From positions 1 to 33,739 of the IMG/VR virus record IMGVR_UViG_3300046009_005905: a DNA stretch of 33,739 nucleotides; one strand, 5' to 3'. A program made the translations under genes and the position numbers. The DNA comes from a virus. The notes beneath the pieces were generated by a model, which was given only the letters and a program-made list of their open reading frames with translations, had not been told where the DNA came from and searched no databases. Numbering within the stretch: the stretch's first letter is position 1; the number at the start of each line of letters is the position of its first letter. Below are positions 130-21,996 of this stretch, piece by piece.

Positions 130-875
130 AAACTTCATTTATACCTGATTTAAAAGGTTTAGAAACTTATAGGGGGATATCATTCAATAACAATAGTACA
201 ACTGTTATTTCTGATGGTGGAGTTACAATGTCATCAAGTGCATCTACTTTGGCTCAATCGGTTGCATCTACTAATTTTGCAACAAAACAAATAAGATTAA
301 GGTATTATTCAACTACTGTGTCAAGTGGAAGGTATACAGGAACTAGAGGATCGGCATTACTTTGGTATATTCACGGTGGTTTTAAATATGTTTGCGATTT
401 CAATATTTCAGATACTACATTTTCAGCAGGTTGTCAACAATTCTATGGGTTGGCAGGTCAAACAACCGATTTAGCTTATGGTGGGGCAGGTGGCACATTG
501 GTAAACACATTAACTAATATAATCGGCGTAGGTAGTGAAGTTGGCGATACTAATTTACAAGTTTTTCATAATGATGGAAGTGGTACAGCCACAAAAATAG
601 ATTTGGGAGTTGATTTTCCAGCTAACAGAACAGCTGGAGCAATTTCAACAACTGTATATTCAATAAAAATATACAACAAACCTAATTCTACAGATGTAAA
701 ATATGAAGTAGTTAATAATGAAACTGGAGTAATTGCAAATGGTACAATTTCAACGAATTTACCTTTAAGCACACAAGGTTTAAATTTCTTTGCTAGTAGA
801 TGTATGTCAACGACTTCTTTAACTAATTCAGGACAATTTGACTTATCAAAATTAGGTGTTTATTCAATCATATAA
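4..875 (+). CDS. Tail/receptor-binding-type protein, 3' part (continues from 32662)
   Basis: C-terminal part of a 607-aa protein whose 5' part is at 32662-33739. An internal GTG at 45 could be mistaken for a start, but the frame is open to the left and joins perfectly with the right end through the 126-bp overlap. The last 277 residues are rich in Ser, Thr, Gly and Asn, with short beta-type segments (for example GSALLWYIHGGFKYVCDF), as in phage lectin-like or receptor-binding domains. It follows the tape measure gene and a small HTH gene, which supports a tail-tip or side-fibre role. The exact function is inferred; no catalytic motif is visible. Confidence 0.8.
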
Positions 876-4077: not shown

Positions 4078-4548
4078 ATGCAAGAAAAAATTGATAAAAT
4101 ATTAAGCTACGAAAAAACCAAAAGTATATGGAGAGGTAACCACCTTTCTACTGAGTGGATAGAAGCTAATGAGTTAAACATTTCTTTATTTGGAATAAGT
4201 CTAAATAGAAGTGCTAAGTGCGAGTGTTTAGAAGATCTATTTTTTGCTTTAAAAAGACCGAATATAATAAATAAAATAACAGAAAAAATGGAAAAACAAT
4301 TTCACGTTAAAAAAGGAAAGGTGATAATGTCATTTGGAACAGATGCAATTACTGAGCATTCAACTGATAAACAATGTATTGCTGCCTTAAAAAACAATCC
4401 TGTTTTAATTAAATTTTTTGAGAAAGTACCTGAGAATTGGGAAAAAATAGTAGGTATTGTAGAAGATGTTAAAGAAATAACAGAGGACGTTAAAGAAGTA
4501 GTTCAAGCGGTTAAAAAAACACGTGCTAAACGCAAAATAAATGGCTAA
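4078..4548 (+). CDS. Hypothetical 156-aa protein upstream of portal
   Basis: 156 residues, with a charged heptad-like helix near the end (GIVEDVKEITEDVKEVVQAVKK, about 129-150) and a very basic tail (KKTRAKRKING). Its stop overlaps the portal start, which indicates translational coupling. The family is not recognised. Its position just before the portal and its coiled-coil, basic end would suit a head-assembly or DNA-contacting minor protein, but that is inference. Confidence 0.65.
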   Translation: MQEKIDKILSYEKTKSIWRGNHLSTEWIEANELNISLFGISLNRSAKCECLEDLFFALKRPNIINKITEKMEKQFHVKKGKVIMSFGTDAITEHSTDKQCIAALKNNPVLIKFFEKVPENWEKIVGIVEDVKEITEDVKEVVQAVKKTRAKRKING

Positions 4549-5878
4549 GGTTAAATCAACGGCTCAAAAGGTCACACAAAGAATTGATGTTATAGATAAC
4601 ATTGGTTTTTTTGTAAAGAAATACGACTTTGACAATAAATACCCTCAAAGGGTAAATGATATTGTCAATGATTCTGGAACTGCAAAAACTTGTTTGAAAC
4701 TATATGAAAAATTTGTTTTTGGTGGTGGTCTTAAAGATACTGATTTCTACAAAAGTAAGATCAACTCAAAAGGTGAAACTACGGATAAATTTGTACGTAA
4801 ATTAGTTAAAGACTTTGGAAAATACGGAGGTGTTGCTATTCACGTTAACTATAATGGACTTTATCAAAAAAGAGAGGTTAGTTTAATACCTTTTGAATTT
4901 TGTAGGCTAACTCCTGAAGGCGACCCGCACGAAGGAATGATACAAGTTTATGACGATTGGGGACACACTAAGCATAAGAAATTTGATAAGACTGATATAA
5001 TTTATATCAATCCTTACAATCCGTCAAATGTTGAGAAAGAGGTTGAAGAAGCAGGAGGATGGGAATTTTATAAAGGTCAAGTTTATTACTCTCCAATGAA
5101 CGAATATCCCTTAGCTCCATTTGATGCGGTTTTAGAAGATATGTTAACAGAAGGTCAATTAAAGAAATTCAAACATTCAACTGCAACTGATAATTTTTTA
5201 GCTAGTCATTTATTGGTTATGGGTAAAACTGAAAGTGATGAAGATGCTGAATTGTTTGATGAAAATATGAGAGCATTTCAAGGTGGTGAAGGAGCAGGTC
5301 GTATAATGGTTATTGAACGTGAAAGTAATGAAGAAGCTATTGAACTTAAAAAATTAGATATTCAAAATTATGACGGTCTTTATGAATATACCGAAAATTC
5401 ATCAAGAGATGCTATAATTAAGATGTTTTTAATACCGCCAGTTTTACTTTTACGCGTTGCTGGTAGTTTAGGAACTTCAAAAGAGATTAGTGATGCTTTT
5501 GATTATTATAACGGAGTTACTTCGGACGATCGTTTAATAATTGAAGAAATTTTAACAGAAATATTTAGCAACTTTTATTATAATATTTGCCCTTCAAATG
5601 ACTATTCTATTTTGCCGTTGAAATATAGCAAAGCAATCGCGCCTGAATATCTTTCTTATTACACAAAAAATGAGATTCGTATAGCAAATGGAGATGAAGA
5701 AGCTACTGATGTTAAAGCAGACACTACTTTGTTAGCGGTTACTTTGGGAGTAGGAGGAACACAAGCTTTGACAAGTATTTTAAGTGATCCAACATTAACA
5801 ATAGAACAGAAAAAAGGTACTTTAAAGGTATTATTCGGATTAAGTGATGAACAAGTACAACAAATGCTTACATTATGA
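4541..5878 (+). CDS. Portal protein
   Basis: 445 residues, the usual length for a siphovirus portal, which forms the ring through which DNA enters the head and on which the connector assembles. Features seen: an N-terminal alpha/beta wing, an insertion ending in FDAVLEDMLTEGQLKKFKHSTATDNF (stem-helix-like), then a helical crown with IKMFLIPPVLLLRVAGSLGTSKEISDAFDYYN. The I-P-P...G...SKEI pattern in the second half is common in portals. The gene overlaps the upstream one by 8 bases and the connector gene by 4 bases. The assignment rests on fold-like pattern and position. Confidence 0.85.
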   Translation: MAKVKSTAQKVTQRIDVIDNIGFFVKKYDFDNKYPQRVNDIVNDSGTAKTCLKLYEKFVFGGGLKDTDFYKSKINSKGETTDKFVRKLVKDFGKYGGVAIHVNYNGLYQKREVSLIPFEFCRLTPEGDPHEGMIQVYDDWGHTKHKKFDKTDIIYINPYNPSNVEKEVEEAGGWEFYKGQVYYSPMNEYPLAPFDAVLEDMLTEGQLKKFKHSTATDNFLASHLLVMGKTESDEDAELFDENMRAFQGGEGAGRIMVIERESNEEAIELKKLDIQNYDGLYEYTENSSRDAIIKMFLIPPVLLLRVAGSLGTSKEISDAFDYYNGVTSDDRLIIEEILTEIFSNFYYNICPSNDYSILPLKYSKAIAPEYLSYYTKNEIRIANGDEEATDVKADTTLLAVTLGVGGTQALTSILSDPTLTIEQKKGTLKVLFGLSDEQVQQMLTL

Positions 5879-6411
5879 TAACAACAAAATTAATAACACT
5901 TCAAAATATACAAGCTGTTAAATCAATTTCATTAAATGTAAATGAGGTTAAACAGTTAACTCCGCATATTTTAGAAGCTCAAAACTTTGATTTAAGGGAA
6001 TTAATCGGTGATGCCTTTTATTTGGATTTAATAACTGATTTTACTTCTTTACCTTCTTTAACTAAATATAGCTTTATATTCAACGGTGGTCAATATACTT
6101 ATCAAAATGAAACTTATTATCTAGACGGTTTAAAACATTATTTAGTTTATTCAAGTTACTCTAGATATTTAGCTAATTCAAACGTAATTAGCACAGCAAC
6201 AGGATTGGTCCACAAAACAAACCAATATAGCGACAAAGTAGAAGAAAAAACAATTGCTAGATTAGTATCACAATCGCGTTCAGCAGCAACGTTTTGCGAG
6301 GAAAATATAAAAAAATATTTGGAAAGAAATAAATCTAGTTATCCGTTATATAAATGCGATAAAAATGTTAATTTTACTAATGGTATAAAAATTAGAAATA
6401 TAGGCTCATGA
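5875..6411 (+). CDS. Head-tail connector/adaptor protein (putative)
   Basis: 178 residues, overlapping the portal stop by ATGA. The segment HILEAQNFDLRELIGDAFYLDLI (about 31-53) resembles the helical start of head-completion adaptors, and the middle (GLKHYLVYSSYSRYLANSN) is a helix likely to dock on the portal. Size, helix-rich N-terminus and place directly after the portal match gp6/gp15-type adaptors. The exact family was not established. Confidence 0.65.
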   Translation: MITTKLITLQNIQAVKSISLNVNEVKQLTPHILEAQNFDLRELIGDAFYLDLITDFTSLPSLTKYSFIFNGGQYTYQNETYYLDGLKHYLVYSSYSRYLANSNVISTATGLVHKTNQYSDKVEEKTIARLVSQSRSAATFCEENIKKYLERNKSSYPLYKCDKNVNFTNGIKIRNIGS

Positions 6412-16021: not shown

Positions 16022-16142
16022 AACTTTATTTTGTATAGCTTTTAAAACTAGAGATAAGATTGTTTTAAAGCATAATAAAAAGGAATTATTTGGATATGCA
16101 ATTACAAATTATAAAAAAGAATACGTAAATAATGAGTTATAA
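15969..16142 (+). CDS. Small 57-aa basic ORF overlapping methyltransferase start
   Basis: 57 residues (MKTKNKHRKIYLARKNFKTLFC...YVNNEL), highly basic, starting inside the previous gene and ending 11 bases into the methyltransferase. It fills what would otherwise be a 110-base gap, and both overlaps suit the operon. Real translation is plausible but unproven. Confidence 0.45.
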   Translation: MKTKNKHRKIYLARKNFKTLFCIAFKTRDKIVLKHNKKELFGYAITNYKKEYVNNEL

Positions 16143-17187
16143 TTGGACTTTAAAAGATGCAGTGTTTACCAAAGATAAAGGAAAAGTGTTTAGCTGTTTT
16201 GCTTGTGGTGGCGGTTCAACAATGGGGTATAAATTAGCAGGATTTGATGTAATAGGTCATAATGATATTGACGTTAAAATGGTAGAGGTTTATAAAGAAA
16301 ACCATAAACCAAAGTATAGTTATTTAGAAAGTATTACAACATTTGCAAAACGTAAAGACTTACCAAAAGAGTTATATGAATTAGATATTTTAGACGGTTC
16401 ACCGCCTTGTTCGAGTTTTTCAATGGCTGGTAATAGAGAAAAAGACTGGGGAAAAGAAAAGAAATTTAGAGAAGGTCAAGAGTTACAAGTTTTAGATACT
16501 TTATTCTTTGATTTTATAGATTTAGCAAAAGAATTACAACCAAAAGTAGTAGTTGCTGAGAATGTAAAAGGGCTGTTATTAGGTAATGCAATTGATTATG
16601 TGCGTAAAATATACAAGGCATTCGATGAGGCTGGATATTATTGTCAACATTTTTTATTAGATGCTTCAAAAATGGGAGTTCCACAACGTAGAGAAAGAGT
16701 CTTTTTTGTATGTTTACGTAAAGATTTAGCACCTAAATTTCTTGAAAGTGTAGATATGTTTACTGAACTACCTAAAATTAAAATGGAATTTAATGAAAAA
16801 GAAATACCTTTTAAAGATTTTGATAGTGGTAAACCAGGCAGAAAAATAACAAAATGTATATTAGAATGGTATGACAAAACAGATATAGGTGAATCAGTAG
16901 GTAATTGCATAAGAAGACACGGATTTAAAGAAAAATTATTTTCATATTCAAAATTAGATCCTAATAAACCTTTAAAAACAATTCTTTCAGCTTATGATAG
17001 TGGGGAATTTAGACACGACACACCACATTATTTACACGAAGAAGATATAATTAAGGGTGGAAGTTATCCAACAGATTATAATTTTTTAGATGTTAAACCT
17101 AAATATCTTGTAGGAATGAGTGTCCCACCTTTAATGACAAAAAGAATAGCAGTAGAAATATATAATCAATGGTTAAGTGAGTTATAA
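16132..17187 (+). CDS. DNA (cytosine-5) methyltransferase, orphan
   Basis: 351 residues with the C5-methyltransferase motif order. Motif I is FACGGGSTMG (23-32), which binds AdoMet; motif IV is GSPPCSSFS with Cys93 as the catalytic nucleophile; motif VI is AENVKG (142-147); motif VIII is QRRERV (185-190); motif X is LVGMSVPPLMTKRIA near the end. The enzyme would methylate cytosine in a sequence set by the region between VIII and X, which cannot be read from sequence. No restriction enzyme is adjacent, so protection of phage DNA against host restriction is the likely role. It is the last gene of the P2 operon. Confidence 0.95.
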   Translation: MSYNWTLKDAVFTKDKGKVFSCFACGGGSTMGYKLAGFDVIGHNDIDVKMVEVYKENHKPKYSYLESITTFAKRKDLPKELYELDILDGSPPCSSFSMAGNREKDWGKEKKFREGQELQVLDTLFFDFIDLAKELQPKVVVAENVKGLLLGNAIDYVRKIYKAFDEAGYYCQHFLLDASKMGVPQRRERVFFVCLRKDLAPKFLESVDMFTELPKIKMEFNEKEIPFKDFDSGKPGRKITKCILEWYDKTDIGESVGNCIRRHGFKEKLFSYSKLDPNKPLKTILSAYDSGEFRHDTPHYLHEEDIIKGGSYPTDYNFLDVKPKYLVGMSVPPLMTKRIAVEIYNQWLSEL

Positions 17188-17206: not shown

Positions 17207-17236
17207 AGCCAGTCATTAATTTGATTGGCTTTTTTT
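17207..17236 (+). terminator. Intrinsic terminator of early operon 2
   Basis: Stem agccagtc (17207-17214) pairs with gattggct (17223-17230) with one G-T wobble, an 8-base loop, and seven Ts counting from 17230. It closes the P2 operon after the methyltransferase. Confidence 0.88.
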
Positions 17237-17249
17237 GTACCTTTATTCT

Positions 17250-17444
17250 ATGAAATACCTTATAATTTTCCTACTATTTTCTTGTCAATCTTATAGCGTA
17301 CACGAGCAAAATCTAATCCAACAACAAAAAAGAATGGAGCAACTTGATGAACAAAGTAGAAAAAAACAACAGAAAATTAGAGATAGCAGAAAAAAAAATT
17401 GTGTAAAGATTAGAAAGTTACACAAAAATAGAAAATATATTTAG
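17250..17444 (+). CDS. Small lipoprotein (64 aa), possible outer-membrane spanin
   Basis: 64 residues from the ATG at 17250 (a TTG at 17235 lies in the terminator and is rejected). The N-terminus MKYLIIFLLFSC is a lipoprotein signal: a short hydrophobic core with lipobox LFSC and lipidation at Cys12. The mature part is a Gln/Lys/Arg-rich helix (QQQKRMEQLDEQSRKKQQKIRDS) with a very basic end. The design fits an o-spanin or an envelope-located exclusion protein. It lies alone between the operon 2 terminator and the control region. A box TACCTTTA (17238-17245) sits 4 bases before the ATG, so the transcript might be leaderless. Confidence 0.6.
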   Translation: MKYLIIFLLFSCQSYSVHEQNLIQQQKRMEQLDEQSRKKQQKIRDSRKKNCVKIRKLHKNRKYI

Positions 17445-17539
17445 CCACATAACCGCATTCTCTTTATATACCGATTTTTGAGATAAAATAAAATAGGGGG
17501 GGGGTACCTAAAAAACCGATTTTGTGCTGGTTATGTGGC
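17444..17539. repeat. Inverted repeat flanking a G9 run
   Basis: gccacataacc (17444-17454) and ggttatgtggc (17529-17539) are perfect 11-base inverted repeats 74 bases apart. Between them lie nine Gs (17496-17504) running into ggtacc, and two direct repeats, accgatttttg (17470-17480) and accgattttg (17515-17524). The G run is exceptional in this AT-rich genome. Protein-binding sites, an origin element or a large stem are all possible. Confidence 0.6.
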
Positions 17540-17665
17540 AGTGATTTGATTTTCAAATAGTTATAGTGGTAAATATGTGGTTTAATATATGGTATTAATT
17601 TAATTATTTGGTTTTCAATTATTTAACTTGATTTTTAGATATATTTTAGATTTATTTTAAAAATT
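17540..17665. other. AT-rich non-coding stretch, possible origin region
   Basis: No ORF, very AT-rich, with one small hairpin, atttga (17544-17549) with tcaaat (17553-17558). It lies just upstream of the promoter and replication genes. Location and low melting stability would suit an origin of replication, but no iterons or DnaA-box cluster were seen. Confidence 0.35.
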
Positions 17666-17698
17666 TTGTAATTTATATTAATATTATTAGTATTTTTG
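17666..17698 (+). promoter_or_regulatory. Promoter P3 before structured RNA and replication operon
   Basis: TTG (17666-17668), 22-base spacer, TATTTTTG (17691-17698), matching TAnnTTTG. The predicted start, about 6 bases downstream, falls at the first base of the hairpin at 17705. No other promoter match was found before the primase gene. Confidence 0.72.
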
Positions 17699-17703
17699 TA
17701 ATA

Positions 17704-17795
17704 CAGTTCTCATCCTACATTATAAGAACTTAAGGATTTTAAACCCTTACAATGAACCAGAGGTAGGATGCTGGGGATTTGTGAGGGTTTTTTTA
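17704..17795 (+). ncRNA. Kissing-loop structured RNA ending in a terminator hairpin
   Basis: Hairpin 1: agttct (17705-17710) pairs with agaact (17725-17730), leaving a 14-base loop. Hairpin 2: aaacccttacaa (17741-17752) pairs with ttgtgagggttt (17779-17790) with one wobble, then an inner stem ccag (17757-17760) with ctgg (17771-17774) and a 10-base loop. Eight bases in loop 1, catcctac (17711-17718), are the exact complement of gtaggatg (17763-17770) in loop 2, so the loops can kiss or form a pseudoknot. Hairpin 2 ends in seven Ts (17788-17794), an intrinsic terminator. A promoter lies directly upstream. It could be a free small RNA of about 90 bases or a leader that controls read-through into the replication genes. 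No known RNA family is recognised. Confidence 0.75.
17788..17794 (+). terminator. T-tract of the RNA's terminal hairpin
   Basis: Seven Ts directly after the 12-bp stem 17741-17752/17779-17790. The stem plus T-run forms an intrinsic terminator 17 bases before the start of the 17812 gene, so the downstream genes would be expressed only by read-through or from an unseen promoter. Confidence 0.75.
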
Positions 17796-17811: not shown

Positions 17812-18042
17812 ATGAATGAAGAAATTTTCAAAGAAAGAAAAAGTAAACTTGAAAGAATTGTTATAGATATTTCAGATTTACGAGTTAATCCATCAACCTA
17901 TGATTTTGATTTTTATTTTATAGGTGGAACATTTAATTTTTATATAAATGATATACCAATTAGAAAAGAAATAATTAAAATAACTAAAAATGAATGGTTA
18001 AATCTTGAATATATTTTTATTAAAACAGTTGAACAATGCTAG
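17812..18042 (+). CDS. Hypothetical 76-aa protein, first gene of replication operon
   Basis: 76 residues, acidic and beta-rich in the middle (YDFDFYFIGGTFNFYIND). Not recognised. It overlaps the primase-helicase start by 7 bases, so it may act in or regulate replication. Confidence 0.62.
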   Translation: MNEEIFKERKSKLERIVIDISDLRVNPSTYDFDFYFIGGTFNFYINDIPIRKEIIKITKNEWLNLEYIFIKTVEQC

Positions 18043-20396
18043 AACCTTTTAACACAAAAATATCAGTATTTAAGAACTTATTTAGTTCAAAGGATACTCC
18101 GTTTTCATTAACTATTACAGAAGTTTATGAACGTATCAAACTTGGTAATCCTATTTTAATTGATAAGATTAATACTATTAGAACTACACAGGATAAAGAA
18201 TTAAGAGATAAAACAAAAAATAGTTTATTAGCTATAATGTTTAATGGAATATTTATTGAAAGAACTGATAATTCGCTTGAAGAACATTCTGGATGTTGTA
18301 TTTTAGATTTTGATAAATATCCAACATTAGAAATAATGAATCAGGAACGTGAAAGATTAATAAAAGATAAGCACGTTTTAATGGTATTTACATCTCCAAG
18401 TGGTAATGGTTTAAAAGCTTTAATTCGTATTCCAAAAAGTAATAAATTAGAACACAAAAGAAGATTTAACGCATTTAGAAAGTATTTTGAAAGTGATTAT
18501 TTTGACGAGAAAAACTGCAACGTTTCTCGAGTTTGCTTTGAAAGTTATGATCCTGATATTTATTTAAATCAATTTTGCGAAGAGTTTACAGAAATTGAAG
18601 AAGAAAAAGGATTTACCTATTCTGAAAAAGTACCTTCGATTATTTTAAGAGATGAAAGAAAAATAATTGAAAGAATAATGAAATTTGATTTTAAAGGTGG
18701 TTTTGAAGAAGGTAACCGAAACAACTACATTTTAAAATTGGCTATGTCATTTTCTGAATATGGAATAAGTCAGGATACTGCTGAAGGATATATTTTTAAC
18801 AATGTTGTAATTGGTGATTTTTCAGAAATAGAAACAATAAATACTATTCGTTCAGCATATAGAAAAACAAATTTTGATAGTAAATATTTTGAGGATTTTT
18901 CTACAATTAAAACAATACAAAATAAAATAAAAAGTGGAATAAATTTAGAAGATATTCAAAAACAACTTAATGTTGAAAAAGAAATAATTAACGAAATAAA
19001 ATTTCAATTAGTTGAGTCTGAAGATATATTTTGGAATATTCAAGTAAATAAAAGTGGAGTTGAAACAATAACTATTGAACCTTTTAAATATGCTTCTTTT
19101 TTGGTGAAAAATGGATTTAATAAATACTATCCTGAAACTTCAGAAAATCCAACTTTTGTAAGAGTAAAAGAAAATAAAGTAAACCTTTCATCAGTTGCTC
19201 AAATAAAAGATTTTGTATTAAATTATTTACTTGAAAGAAGTTTAATAAATGTATGGAATTACTGCTCTAAAAGTCCATACCTATTTACTGAAAGTCATTT
19301 AAATATGATTGATAGTATTTACTTAAAAATGTTGTCAGATGAAAAAGATACTGCTTATATTCCATTTAAAAATGGAGTTGTTAAAGTAACTGCTGATAAT
19401 ACTGAATTACTTAATTATATTGATGTCGATGGATATATTTGGGAAAATCAAATAATAAATAGAGAATTTAAAAAAGTAAGTGATTACACAAATGATTTTC
19501 AAGATTTTATACGTAAAGTAAGTGCAAACGATGATGAAAGAACAAAATCATTAGAACTTACACTAGGATATTTAATTCATACCTACAAAGATAAAACAGA
19601 CCAAAAAGCAATTATATTTAATGACCAAGAAATTGACGACAATCCAAATGGGGGAAGTGGAAAAAGTTTAGTTTTAACTTCTCTTTCACATTTTAGAAAA
19701 TTAATTAAAATTGATGGAAAAGCATTTGACCCGAAAAAATCTGATTTTGTTTATCAACGTGTTAATTTAGACACTCAAATTCTTTCATTTGATGACGTTA
19801 AAAAGAACTTTAATTTTGAACAATTATTTTCTTTAATTACTGAGGGGATAACAGTTAACCGAAAAAATAAGGATGAAATATTTATTCCCTTTGAACGCTC
19901 ACCAAAAATTATTATTACAACTAACTATGTAATTAATGGAATTGGAAGCTCACACGAAAGAAGAAGGCACGAAATAGAGTTTTTTCAGTATTTTAATAAT
20001 AAAAGAAGCCCACTTTCTGAATATGGTAGATTGCTTTTTGATAGTTGGAATGTAAACGATTGGAATAAATTTGACAACTATTTTATTAATAATTTACAAA
20101 TGTTTTTAAAATATGGTTTATCTAAAACAATTTCTATTAATGGAAATGCTAAAAGATTTATTCAGGGTACAACGAAAGATTTTTATGATTGGACTGAAGA
20201 GGGTAATTTACAAGTCAATAAAAGAATCTATACTGTTGAAATTGTATCTTTATTTCTTCAAGAATATAAAAATTATAAAGAATTAAGTCCAAGAGATTTT
20301 ATGAAATGGGTGCGTGAATATTGTAACTACAAAGGTTATGATTTTGAAAAGAACAGAGACCAACAAGGTAGATATTTTGAAATAAAAACTAATTAA
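18036..20396 (+). CDS. Primase-helicase (VirE_N/BT4734-type primase + SF3-like helicase)
   Basis: 786 residues. The N-terminal region matches the VirE_N/BT4734-type archaeo-eukaryotic primase: catalytic acidic pair in ILDFDKYP (Asp91, Asp93), SPSGNGLKALIRIP (120-133), and NVSRVCFESYDPDIY (162-176). A helical PriCT-like segment follows (about 228-265). The C-terminal half is a helicase-type ATPase with Walker A NPNGGSGKS (536-544), Walker B-like ILSFDDV and a sensor-like IIITTNY, as in SF3 replicative helicases. The protein probably synthesises primers and unwinds DNA at the phage origin. It is followed after 7 bases by a second helicase gene. Confidence 0.9.
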   Translation: MLEPFNTKISVFKNLFSSKDTPFSLTITEVYERIKLGNPILIDKINTIRTTQDKELRDKTKNSLLAIMFNGIFIERTDNSLEEHSGCCILDFDKYPTLEIMNQERERLIKDKHVLMVFTSPSGNGLKALIRIPKSNKLEHKRRFNAFRKYFESDYFDEKNCNVSRVCFESYDPDIYLNQFCEEFTEIEEEKGFTYSEKVPSIILRDERKIIERIMKFDFKGGFEEGNRNNYILKLAMSFSEYGISQDTAEGYIFNNVVIGDFSEIETINTIRSAYRKTNFDSKYFEDFSTIKTIQNKIKSGINLEDIQKQLNVEKEIINEIKFQLVESEDIFWNIQVNKSGVETITIEPFKYASFLVKNGFNKYYPETSENPTFVRVKENKVNLSSVAQIKDFVLNYLLERSLINVWNYCSKSPYLFTESHLNMIDSIYLKMLSDEKDTAYIPFKNGVVKVTADNTELLNYIDVDGYIWENQIINREFKKVSDYTNDFQDFIRKVSANDDERTKSLELTLGYLIHTYKDKTDQKAIIFNDQEIDDNPNGGSGKSLVLTSLSHFRKLIKIDGKAFDPKKSDFVYQRVNLDTQILSFDDVKKNFNFEQLFSLITEGITVNRKNKDEIFIPFERSPKIIITTNYVINGIGSSHERRRHEIEFFQYFNNKRSPLSEYGRLLFDSWNVNDWNKFDNYFINNLQMFLKYGLSKTISINGNAKRFIQGTTKDFYDWTEEGNLQVNKRIYTVEIVSLFLQEYKNYKELSPRDFMKWVREYCNYKGYDFEKNRDQQGRYFEIKTN

Positions 20397-20403
20397 AAAA
20401 GAA

Positions 20404-21996
20404 ATGTTAAACGAAGAACAACAAGAATTGCAAAATCAATTAATAGATTTTATAGAACAAGAAGAAAATGGTTTTTTTGGTGTAGTCGGTGCTGGTGGGA
20501 CTGGAAAAACTTATACTATTTGTCAAACAATAGATGTTTCAAAAGCTATTTTTTTAGGTGCAACAAATAAAGTGGTTGGTAATTTAAAAAATCAATTAAA
20601 AGATTTAGGACATTTAAATTTTAAAGCTAAAACAATCGATAGTTTTTTAAATTTTAAAATGATAAAAGACCATAACAACAAAACAATAACTAAAAGAAAA
20701 CTTCCTAAAAATGGAGATATTCCAAATATTATTGTAATTGATGAAATATCTTTAATTAATAATGAATGTTTTGATTTATTAATGAAATTAAAAGACAAAA
20801 GAAAGTTTATTTTAATAGGTGATAATAGACAAATTCCACCTATTGAGGATGATTTTGAGCGAGATAGTCAAGATTTTAAAGTAAGTAAAATATTTAATAA
20901 ATTAGATTACAGTTTTGAATTAACTATTCAGCAAAGACAAAAAGAAGGTACAGATTTAAAAGATTTAATTAAAAAGTTTAGAGATAATATGCATCTTAAA
21001 ATTAATTTTGAAAAAATGGCTGAAAAATTTAAAAATGATTCTGATATACTTTTTTACAATAATAATTCAAAAGAACTTAAGCAAATAATAAAAGGTCAAA
21101 ATCCAATAGCTGTATGTTTTAAAAATTTAACTTGTCTTTCATTTAATTGGTTAATAGGTTCTACAAAATCAAATAATTTAGGGTATAAAGTAAATGAATT
21201 AAATATTGGTGATGTTGTTTTTTTTGATGGTTTCTACTCAAGAGATGATGAAAAATTTTACACTTCAGAAATAGTTGAAATAATAGATATTGAACATTTT
21301 GTAGAAGAAGAAAAAGAAATATATCCTGGTGAAATTGCAAAATTTAATTATAAAAAAATATTAGTTAAAAAAGAAAGTGGAGTTAGTGTTATTATTTATG
21401 TTGGTAATGGTTACCAAAATACTTTATATCCTATTAAATACAGAATTGATAAAGTAGTTGGTAAAATAAAAAAAGAAATTGAAAAATTAAATGAAGGCAA
21501 TAAATATAAATTTGTGCTTCAAAAAAAAATAGCTGAATTAAATACAAAATATAATGATTTAAAGCTAGGTTTTGCTACACTTAAAAAACCTTTTGCTATT
21601 ACTTCACATAAAAGTCAAGGAAGTACATTTAAAGACGTTATAATTCCAATTTATGACTATGCTAATAAAAATCCTCAAGATGTTAATCAGTTAATGTATG
21701 TGGCTATGTCAAGAGCAAAAAATAGAATAATATTTGTAAATAAAAAATCTAATTTTAAAGATAATTCTAATAGATATTCTTTTTCAGAAATGGAGCGTTC
21801 AGCGATTGCATCAAGTCAATCTTATAATTGTAATATTTGTGAAATTGAACTAAATGATAATCGAGAATTTGATATAGACCATATTATTCCAATTGCAAAT
21901 GGTGGAAAAAATACATTAGATAATCTTCAAGCTATTTGCAAAAAATGTCATTCTGAAAAAACTAAAGCAGAAAAGTATGGAATTGAATTAAAATAA
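20404..21996 (+). CDS. SF1 (RecD/Dda-like) helicase with C-terminal HNH nuclease domain
   Basis: 530 residues. Helicase motifs: Walker A GAGGTGKT (29-36), Walker B VIDE (111-114), motif III GDNRQIPP (139-146), and near residue 400 ITSHKSQGSTF (motif V-like), then YVAMSRAKNRIIFV (motif VI with the conserved Arg). This fits the RecD/Dda branch of superfamily 1, DNA helicases that move 5'-3'. Residues 476-516 add a complete HNH motif: CNIC (476-479), DIDH (490-493), NGGKNTLDNL (499-508) and CKKCH (512-516), so the zinc Cys pairs and the catalytic His493 are all present. The two domains lie in one uninterrupted frame. The HNH part might nick or cut DNA during replication or recombination, or target host DNA. 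Confidence 0.9.
   Translation: MLNEEQQELQNQLIDFIEQEENGFFGVVGAGGTGKTYTICQTIDVSKAIFLGATNKVVGNLKNQLKDLGHLNFKAKTIDSFLNFKMIKDHNNKTITKRKLPKNGDIPNIIVIDEISLINNECFDLLMKLKDKRKFILIGDNRQIPPIEDDFERDSQDFKVSKIFNKLDYSFELTIQQRQKEGTDLKDLIKKFRDNMHLKINFEKMAEKFKNDSDILFYNNNSKELKQIIKGQNPIAVCFKNLTCLSFNWLIGSTKSNNLGYKVNELNIGDVVFFDGFYSRDDEKFYTSEIVEIIDIEHFVEEEKEIYPGEIAKFNYKKILVKKESGVSVIIYVGNGYQNTLYPIKYRIDKVVGKIKKEIEKLNEGNKYKFVLQKKIAELNTKYNDLKLGFATLKKPFAITSHKSQGSTFKDVIIPIYDYANKNPQDVNQLMYVAMSRAKNRIIFVNKKSNFKDNSNRYSFSEMERSAIASSQSYNCNICEIELNDNREFDIDHIIPIANGGKNTLDNLQAICKKCHSEKTKAEKYGIELK

Follow-up and report, generated by a model that had tools for sequence, protein, structure and literature searches.

Hairpins that kiss through fully paired loops of 6-8 nt, encoded beside a replication gene, operate in RNAI/RNAII-type plasmid copy control. 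The C4 antisense RNA of P1/P7, which is represented in Rfam, and CA of N15 are trans-acting RNAs tied to antirepressor operons. In P4, the antisense segment of the CI RNA has two complementary copies to pair with, one upstream (seqA) and one downstream (seqC), and it stops transcription into the replication genes (PMC4825925). IsrK of the Salmonella prophage Gifsy-1 is made from one promoter that yields a terminated small RNA and a read-through mRNA sharing its start sequence, and IsrK activates translation of this read-through mRNA (PMC4825925).

The window analysed here is the whole of a 33,739-nt stretch (IMGVR_UViG_3300046009_005905, positions 1 to 33,739) from a virus of Bacteroidota bacteria. 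It encodes an RNA that, judged from sequence comparison, belongs to a new RNA family, widespread in phages of Bacteroidota and apparently undescribed. Its logic is best read as similar to that of P4 CI, P1 C4 and Gifsy-1 IsrK, in an RNA family unmatched in Rfam. The RNA consists of two hairpins with complementary loops: the loop word K1 lies in hairpin H1, and its complement K' in hairpin H2, an intrinsic terminator. A sister form (type C) repeats the loop word as K2, which lies 0-5 nt ahead of the first gene's start codon.

As with P4 CI, the RNA is encoded in the leader of a replication operon and is proposed to affect transcription into replication genes, and the placement of seqA and seqC around the antisense segment parallels the order K1 - K' - K2 (PMC4825925). 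Encoding in an operon leader, a feature of P4 CI and P1 C4, is apparent here from position and spacing, the regulation itself being putative. CI is processed from a longer transcript, whereas the leader RNA has an internal intrinsic terminator; its upstream copy sits in a kissing-hairpin loop, and K2 is missing in the window. P4 is, moreover, temperate, whereas the bacterial genomes searched almost entirely lack the leader RNA.

An antirepressor link, as for C4 and CA, is seen in Tenacibaculum phage Gundel_1, where the RNA lies directly before the Ant gene. In contrast to C4, the window RNA and a type-C member have no Rfam match, the fold is a compact kissing structure with a terminator, and the downstream genes are mostly replication genes. 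The predicted arrangement of a terminated leader and read-through upstream of phage regulatory genes resembles IsrK (PMC4825925), and a single promoter, an intrinsic terminator and a target gene without another promoter can be read from the sequence. However, three-way covariation of the kissing pair is not described for IsrK, and sequence and host phylum differ. Fully paired 6-8-nt loops between two hairpins near a replication gene recall RNAI/RNAII, but both hairpins here lie on one transcript, versus sense and antisense RNAs there.

These comparisons suggest that many Bacteroidota phages control replication genes via an RNA leader, a logic known only from a few enterobacterial phages. Covariation is very strong and extends to a rare three-way co-change, in which both loops and the start-codon sequence vary together, so that simple compensatory mutations can test function. 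The compact kissing fold, its loops exchangeable, would also add to the few RNA tools of this phylum.

Architecture of the RNA in the window

A preliminary description had proposed two hairpins, a promoter and a terminator at this locus, and all are confirmed from the sequence at the coordinates given there (Table 1). The 8-base complementarity that it reported between the loops is exact, and the Bacteroidetes promoter that it placed directly before H1 is kept in relatives, where the TAnnTTTG element stands at the same distance and the RNA starts right behind it. Its outer helix of 12 bp and run of seven T are both present; the run, however, does not follow the full helix, since its first three T pair with AAA at 17741-17743, so that the T run comes after a 9-bp core. 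A search of the window for the K1...K' pattern finds this single instance, and 100 shuffled versions contain none. Folded without the kissing helix, the nested structure is moderately stable (-24.6 kcal/mol, z -2.2, ViennaRNA).

Table 1. Coordinates of the leader RNA and the adjoining genes in the window
Feature	Position	Strand	Description and basis
Promoter	17665..17698	+	TTTG 17665-17668 and TATTTTTG 17691-17698, the TAnnTTTG -7 box of Bacteroidota; sequence, and equal distance before the RNA in relatives
Hairpin H1	17705..17730	+	Stem AGTTCT 17705-17710 / AGAACT 17725-17730; 14-nt loop holds K1; 5/6 pairs changed two-sidedly
K1, CATCCTAC	17711..17718	+	5' half of kissing helix; sequence, shuffles, covariation
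Single-stranded linker, TAAGGATTTT	17731..17740	+	Family consensus AAGGTATTATT; conserved in alignment
Hairpin H2, intrinsic terminator	17741..17790	+	Outer helix, internal loop, P3, apical loop AG + K'; sequence, folding, covariation
H2 outer helix, AAACCCTTACAA / TTGTGAGGGTTT	17741-17752 / 17779-17790	+	Read from sequence
H2 internal loop, TGAA / GGAT	17753-17756 / 17775-17778	+	Read from sequence
H2 inner helix P3, CCAG / CTGG	17757-17760 / 17771-17774	+	Read from sequence
K', GTAGGATG	17763..17770	+	3' half of kissing helix, in terminator loop; exact complement of K1
T7 run of terminator	17788..17794	+	Read from sequence; T run in 38/38 aligned relatives
First gene after leader, 76-aa ORF	17812..18042	+	Function unassigned: no Pfam or PHROG match; 21 nt after stem
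Primase-helicase, BT4734/VirE-N type (BT4734-like_N, PriCT_1)	18036..20396	+	Replication gene of operon; Pfam/PHROG searches

Variation in the flanking signals was seen among relatives. Many type-A RNAs (e.g. L101:5510-5550) have a GCAAC/GAAAC word about 19 nt before TATATTTG, replacing the usual -33 TTTG; this word could be a phage-specific promoter element. The T runs of the Gundel_1 and L003/L005-type RNAs are weak or interrupted.

Covariation of helices and loops

An alignment of 38 sequences, including varied loop words, has standard pairs in 97.6% of its pair cells, compared with 78.6% after shuffling. Within the kissing helix pairing reaches 99.7%; five of its eight pairs have changed on both sides and the other three are invariant. 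Covariation in both loops, the check that the preliminary description had asked for, is thus found. Pairing is complete (100%) in the outer helix of H2, where 6 of 11 pairs changed on both sides, and in P3, where 3 of 4 did. When the register is slid by one to three columns, pairing drops to 32-49%. Uncompensated loop changes, named beforehand as refuting evidence, were looked for in all 38 sequences: K and K' pair perfectly in 37, over eight matched loop words. The remaining one (L130:3375-3468) is a natural chimera that combines a K1 of CCTTCGAC with a K' of GTCGGATG and keeps 7 of 8 pairs.

The sister form has loops of 6-7 nt, fully complementary between its two hairpins, and its internal loop is AGTA/GAA in place of the TGAA/GGAT of the window's form; the two are known rigid non-canonical motifs (loop E and tandem GA). 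Judged by the alignment, the RNA is genuinely structured and its loop-loop helix is real, the structure being under selection.

Distribution of the family

The same architecture was found in more than 120 distinct sequences from IMG/VR contigs and in one cultured phage, Gundel_1 (NC_062747.1, 33902-33998), which carries the RNA in a stretch without annotation. Gundel_1 is the sole isolated phage and the sole BLASTN match in the phage collection. Relatives of the primase show the same layout with different loop words. A first, loose descriptor was swamped by AT-rich chance matches. The descriptor used instead required H1 and K/K' between a promoter and a terminator, which served as anchors. Run on both strands of 2.35 Mb, it gave 119 real matches and one evident false one; at primase loci it found the RNA in 28 of 93, and in 0 of 465 shuffled upstream regions.

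A DNA pattern for type A, built on linker and terminator arm, matched 85 IMG/VR contigs, and all but three of the 80 listed carry the RNA. The pattern for the sister form matched at least 120 contigs; the type-C set used below comprises 69 distinct RNAs with enough flank and an exact K1, rows without K1 looking off-target or truncated. The different loop words number about 19, and almost every one has a perfect match in the partner loop. One RNA per genome is present in 22 of 24 records. L005 has two copies (4484-4567 and 5893-5978) with loop words GCGTAGGA and GCGTGGAA, one preceding a NUMOD4-HNH-like gene and the other the primase. A second match of the R1 search in the window (270-383) lies inside a coding region and mainly reflects the linker word; it was rejected.

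Searches of bacterial genomes gave few matches. The type-A pattern had 27 in an 84,980-species set, with the RNA in 0 of these 27 sequences, and the type-C pattern had 0 among 397 genomes from the family to which Flavobacterium sp. TAB 87 belongs. In that same family the R1 search matched 1 of 397 genomes, absence being weak evidence with 10 candidates scored per genome; the match (L378:313-407) comes from a Flavobacteriaceae genome (G114:C164), where it precedes a 265-aa ORF on a contig of 3.5 kb. This ORF looks like a phage replication protein, and the contig is perhaps a prophage or a co-binned phage. A role in lysogen immunity like that of P4 CI is doubtful, because the type-A genome matches are not the RNA and just one of the 397 genomes in the Flavobacterium-family sample has a match, on this short contig.

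The view that this is not a known family is borne out by Rfam (cmscan), where the window has no gathering-level match and a permissive threshold adds only weak, chance-level ones; a type-C member is likewise unmatched. One such match, to the CRISPR repeat RNA CRISPR-DR66, reached 18.2 bits against a gathering threshold of 45 and was discarded. No RNA of such kind was found described in the literature covered, which excluded subscription papers.

Position upstream of early operons

The RNA precedes the opening gene of an early operon, usually one for replication, mostly by 14-28 nt. On positional evidence it is a leader and not a free-floating phage small RNA. The first gene is co-directional, its start codon following the terminator stem at a median of 22 nt (IQR 18-23). 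The 129 distinct first proteins form 21 clusters that share no detectable similarity with each other, and they include replisome organisers/DnaD-like loaders, primase-helicase, NUMOD4-HNH endonucleases, DNA methylase, a ParB-like protein and the Ant antirepressor. As a gap of about 22 nt leaves no room for a second promoter, the replication genes must be reached by terminator read-through. In the window, the preceding operon is insulated by its own terminator at 17207-17230.

Not all primase loci have this leader. It is absent from 65 of 93, where a promoter of the same kind lies 25-35 nt before the primase, and L009 and L012, which match in upstream region and primase start, differ by the RNA cassette. 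Together, these observations identify the RNA as an optional leader module and not part of an origin. A comparison upstream of the primase in L044 and L064 shows the RNA and a NUMOD4-HNH endonuclease gene occurring together; phages with both and without both have primase genes that are 92% identical. A joint insertion of the RNA with the homing endonuclease is possible.

K2, a further copy of the loop word beside the start codon

Of the upstream and downstream complementary copies that flank the antisense segment in RNAs of the P4 CI and P1 C4 type, K1 would correspond to the first, present in all members, and K2, present in part of them, to the second. K2 equals the RNA's own K in 50 of 69 type-C RNAs, over six K words (permuted mean 13, maximum 23), a co-change that rests on the remaining 2-3 positions because the type-C search pattern fixes CTGC of K'. 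In an overlapping set, K2 equals the own K in 19 of 77, compared with a permuted mean of 3.8 and a maximum of 9; these 19 comprise 12 RNAs with K = CCTTCGAC, out of 20 that have this word, and 7 of type C. The own K occurs within 50 nt downstream in 18 of 71, foreign K words in none. K2 thus varies together with K1 and K' across relatives. It is absent from the window (duplex energy -0.7 kcal/mol) and likewise from most type-A members, so that K'-K2 pairing cannot be the general function.

Proposed mechanism and alternatives

Anatomy, covariation, the conserved promoter, position, spacing and K2 co-change are supported by sequence. With moderate confidence, we read the RNA as a self-terminating leader (attenuator) of the phage replication operon, in which an antisense loop has one or two alternative partners. 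Transcription would start at about 17703-17705. H1 would fold first and expose K1, with which K' could pair on leaving the polymerase; the H2 terminator would then close, and most transcripts would end near 17791-17795, giving an RNA of about 90 nt. Predicted folding of growing transcripts places the K1-K' paired state before the terminator. Only read-through transcripts would reach the primase genes, so the leader would cap replication-gene output and is probably a built-in brake on virus replication.

K' would be the antisense element, with K1 as its partner everywhere. In many relatives, but not in the window, K' could instead pair with K2 and block translation of the first gene, acting either within the read-through mRNA (in cis) or, from the terminated RNA, in trans. 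We infer transcription, termination, attenuation, competition between K1 and K2 (or between kissing helix and terminator) and the direction of control. A more elaborate scheme is tentative and somewhat doubtful: K' would choose between K1 (gene on) and K2 at the start codon (gene off), and the same RNA would end transcription and, once released, act in trans, thereby sensing phage genome number and holding down replication-gene output.

It is unlikely that the element is an independent small RNA which targets host or other phage messages in trans and merely happens to lie before the operon, leaky read-through supplying the replication genes. Such an RNA would have its own promoter and terminator, a compact predicted product of about 90 nt and a conserved single-stranded linker, all of which are present, but the tight spacing kept before 21 unrelated kinds of first gene, the single copy in most genomes and the occupation of K' in cis by K1 argue against it. 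Nor is K clearly enriched at other start codons of the genome (11 observed, versus 8.2 for foreign K).

Less probable still is a ligand- or protein-sensing switch (riboswitch, ribosomal-leader-like or HK022 put-like antiterminator) with the kissing fold as sensor and the terminator as expression platform. Known aptamers are unmatched in Rfam and the downstream genes suggest no metabolite, although the conserved unpaired linker and the TGAA/GGAT or AGTA/GAA internal loop, with their covarying helices, would suit a sensor. No universally conserved alternative (antiterminator) fold was found in the family, and the one predicted for the window is not conserved by eye in the alignment. Pairing of linker AAGG with terminator arm CCTT was considered as an antiterminator; it fits the window but not members with the arm GCCAT, and is no family feature.

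That the transcript primes DNA synthesis or belongs to the origin is very improbable. The RNA does have an origin-like repeat region on one side and the primase gene on the other, yet the origin-like motif CTCTT(T)ATATACC goes with the primase: 28 of 67 loci have it upstream of this gene, and 544 kb of sequence downstream of the primase start lack it. With this motif at just 6 of 120 RNA loci, the RNA as an origin part was rejected, and the RNA-free primase loci and the RNAs heading operons without a BT4734/VirE-N primase likewise speak against it. Intermolecular loop-loop pairing as the main function (a multimer or scaffold RNA, as phi29 pRNA) is also highly improbable: the loops are fully complementary to each other, but a short linker joins the hairpins, so intramolecular pairing should win, and the RNA is located at early genes and not at packaging genes. 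Chance, that is, an accidental 8-base match between an ordinary terminator and a neighbouring hairpin in an AT-rich intergenic region where hairpins are common, can be set aside, as the alignment already refutes it; the earlier argument against chance is upheld by the window shuffles, the shuffled upstream regions and covariation, the decisive evidence being comparative (covariation and descriptor counts).

Other features of the window's replication region

Ahead of the replication region, positions 16132-17187 encode a C5 cytosine DNA methyltransferase. A single ORF at 20404-21996 encodes a Dda/PIF1-like helicase with a C-terminal HNH endonuclease domain. At 17444-17454 and 17529-17539, a perfect 11-bp inverted repeat, GCCACATAACC...GGTTATGTGGC, flanks CTCTTTATATACC and a G9 run in an origin-like arrangement.
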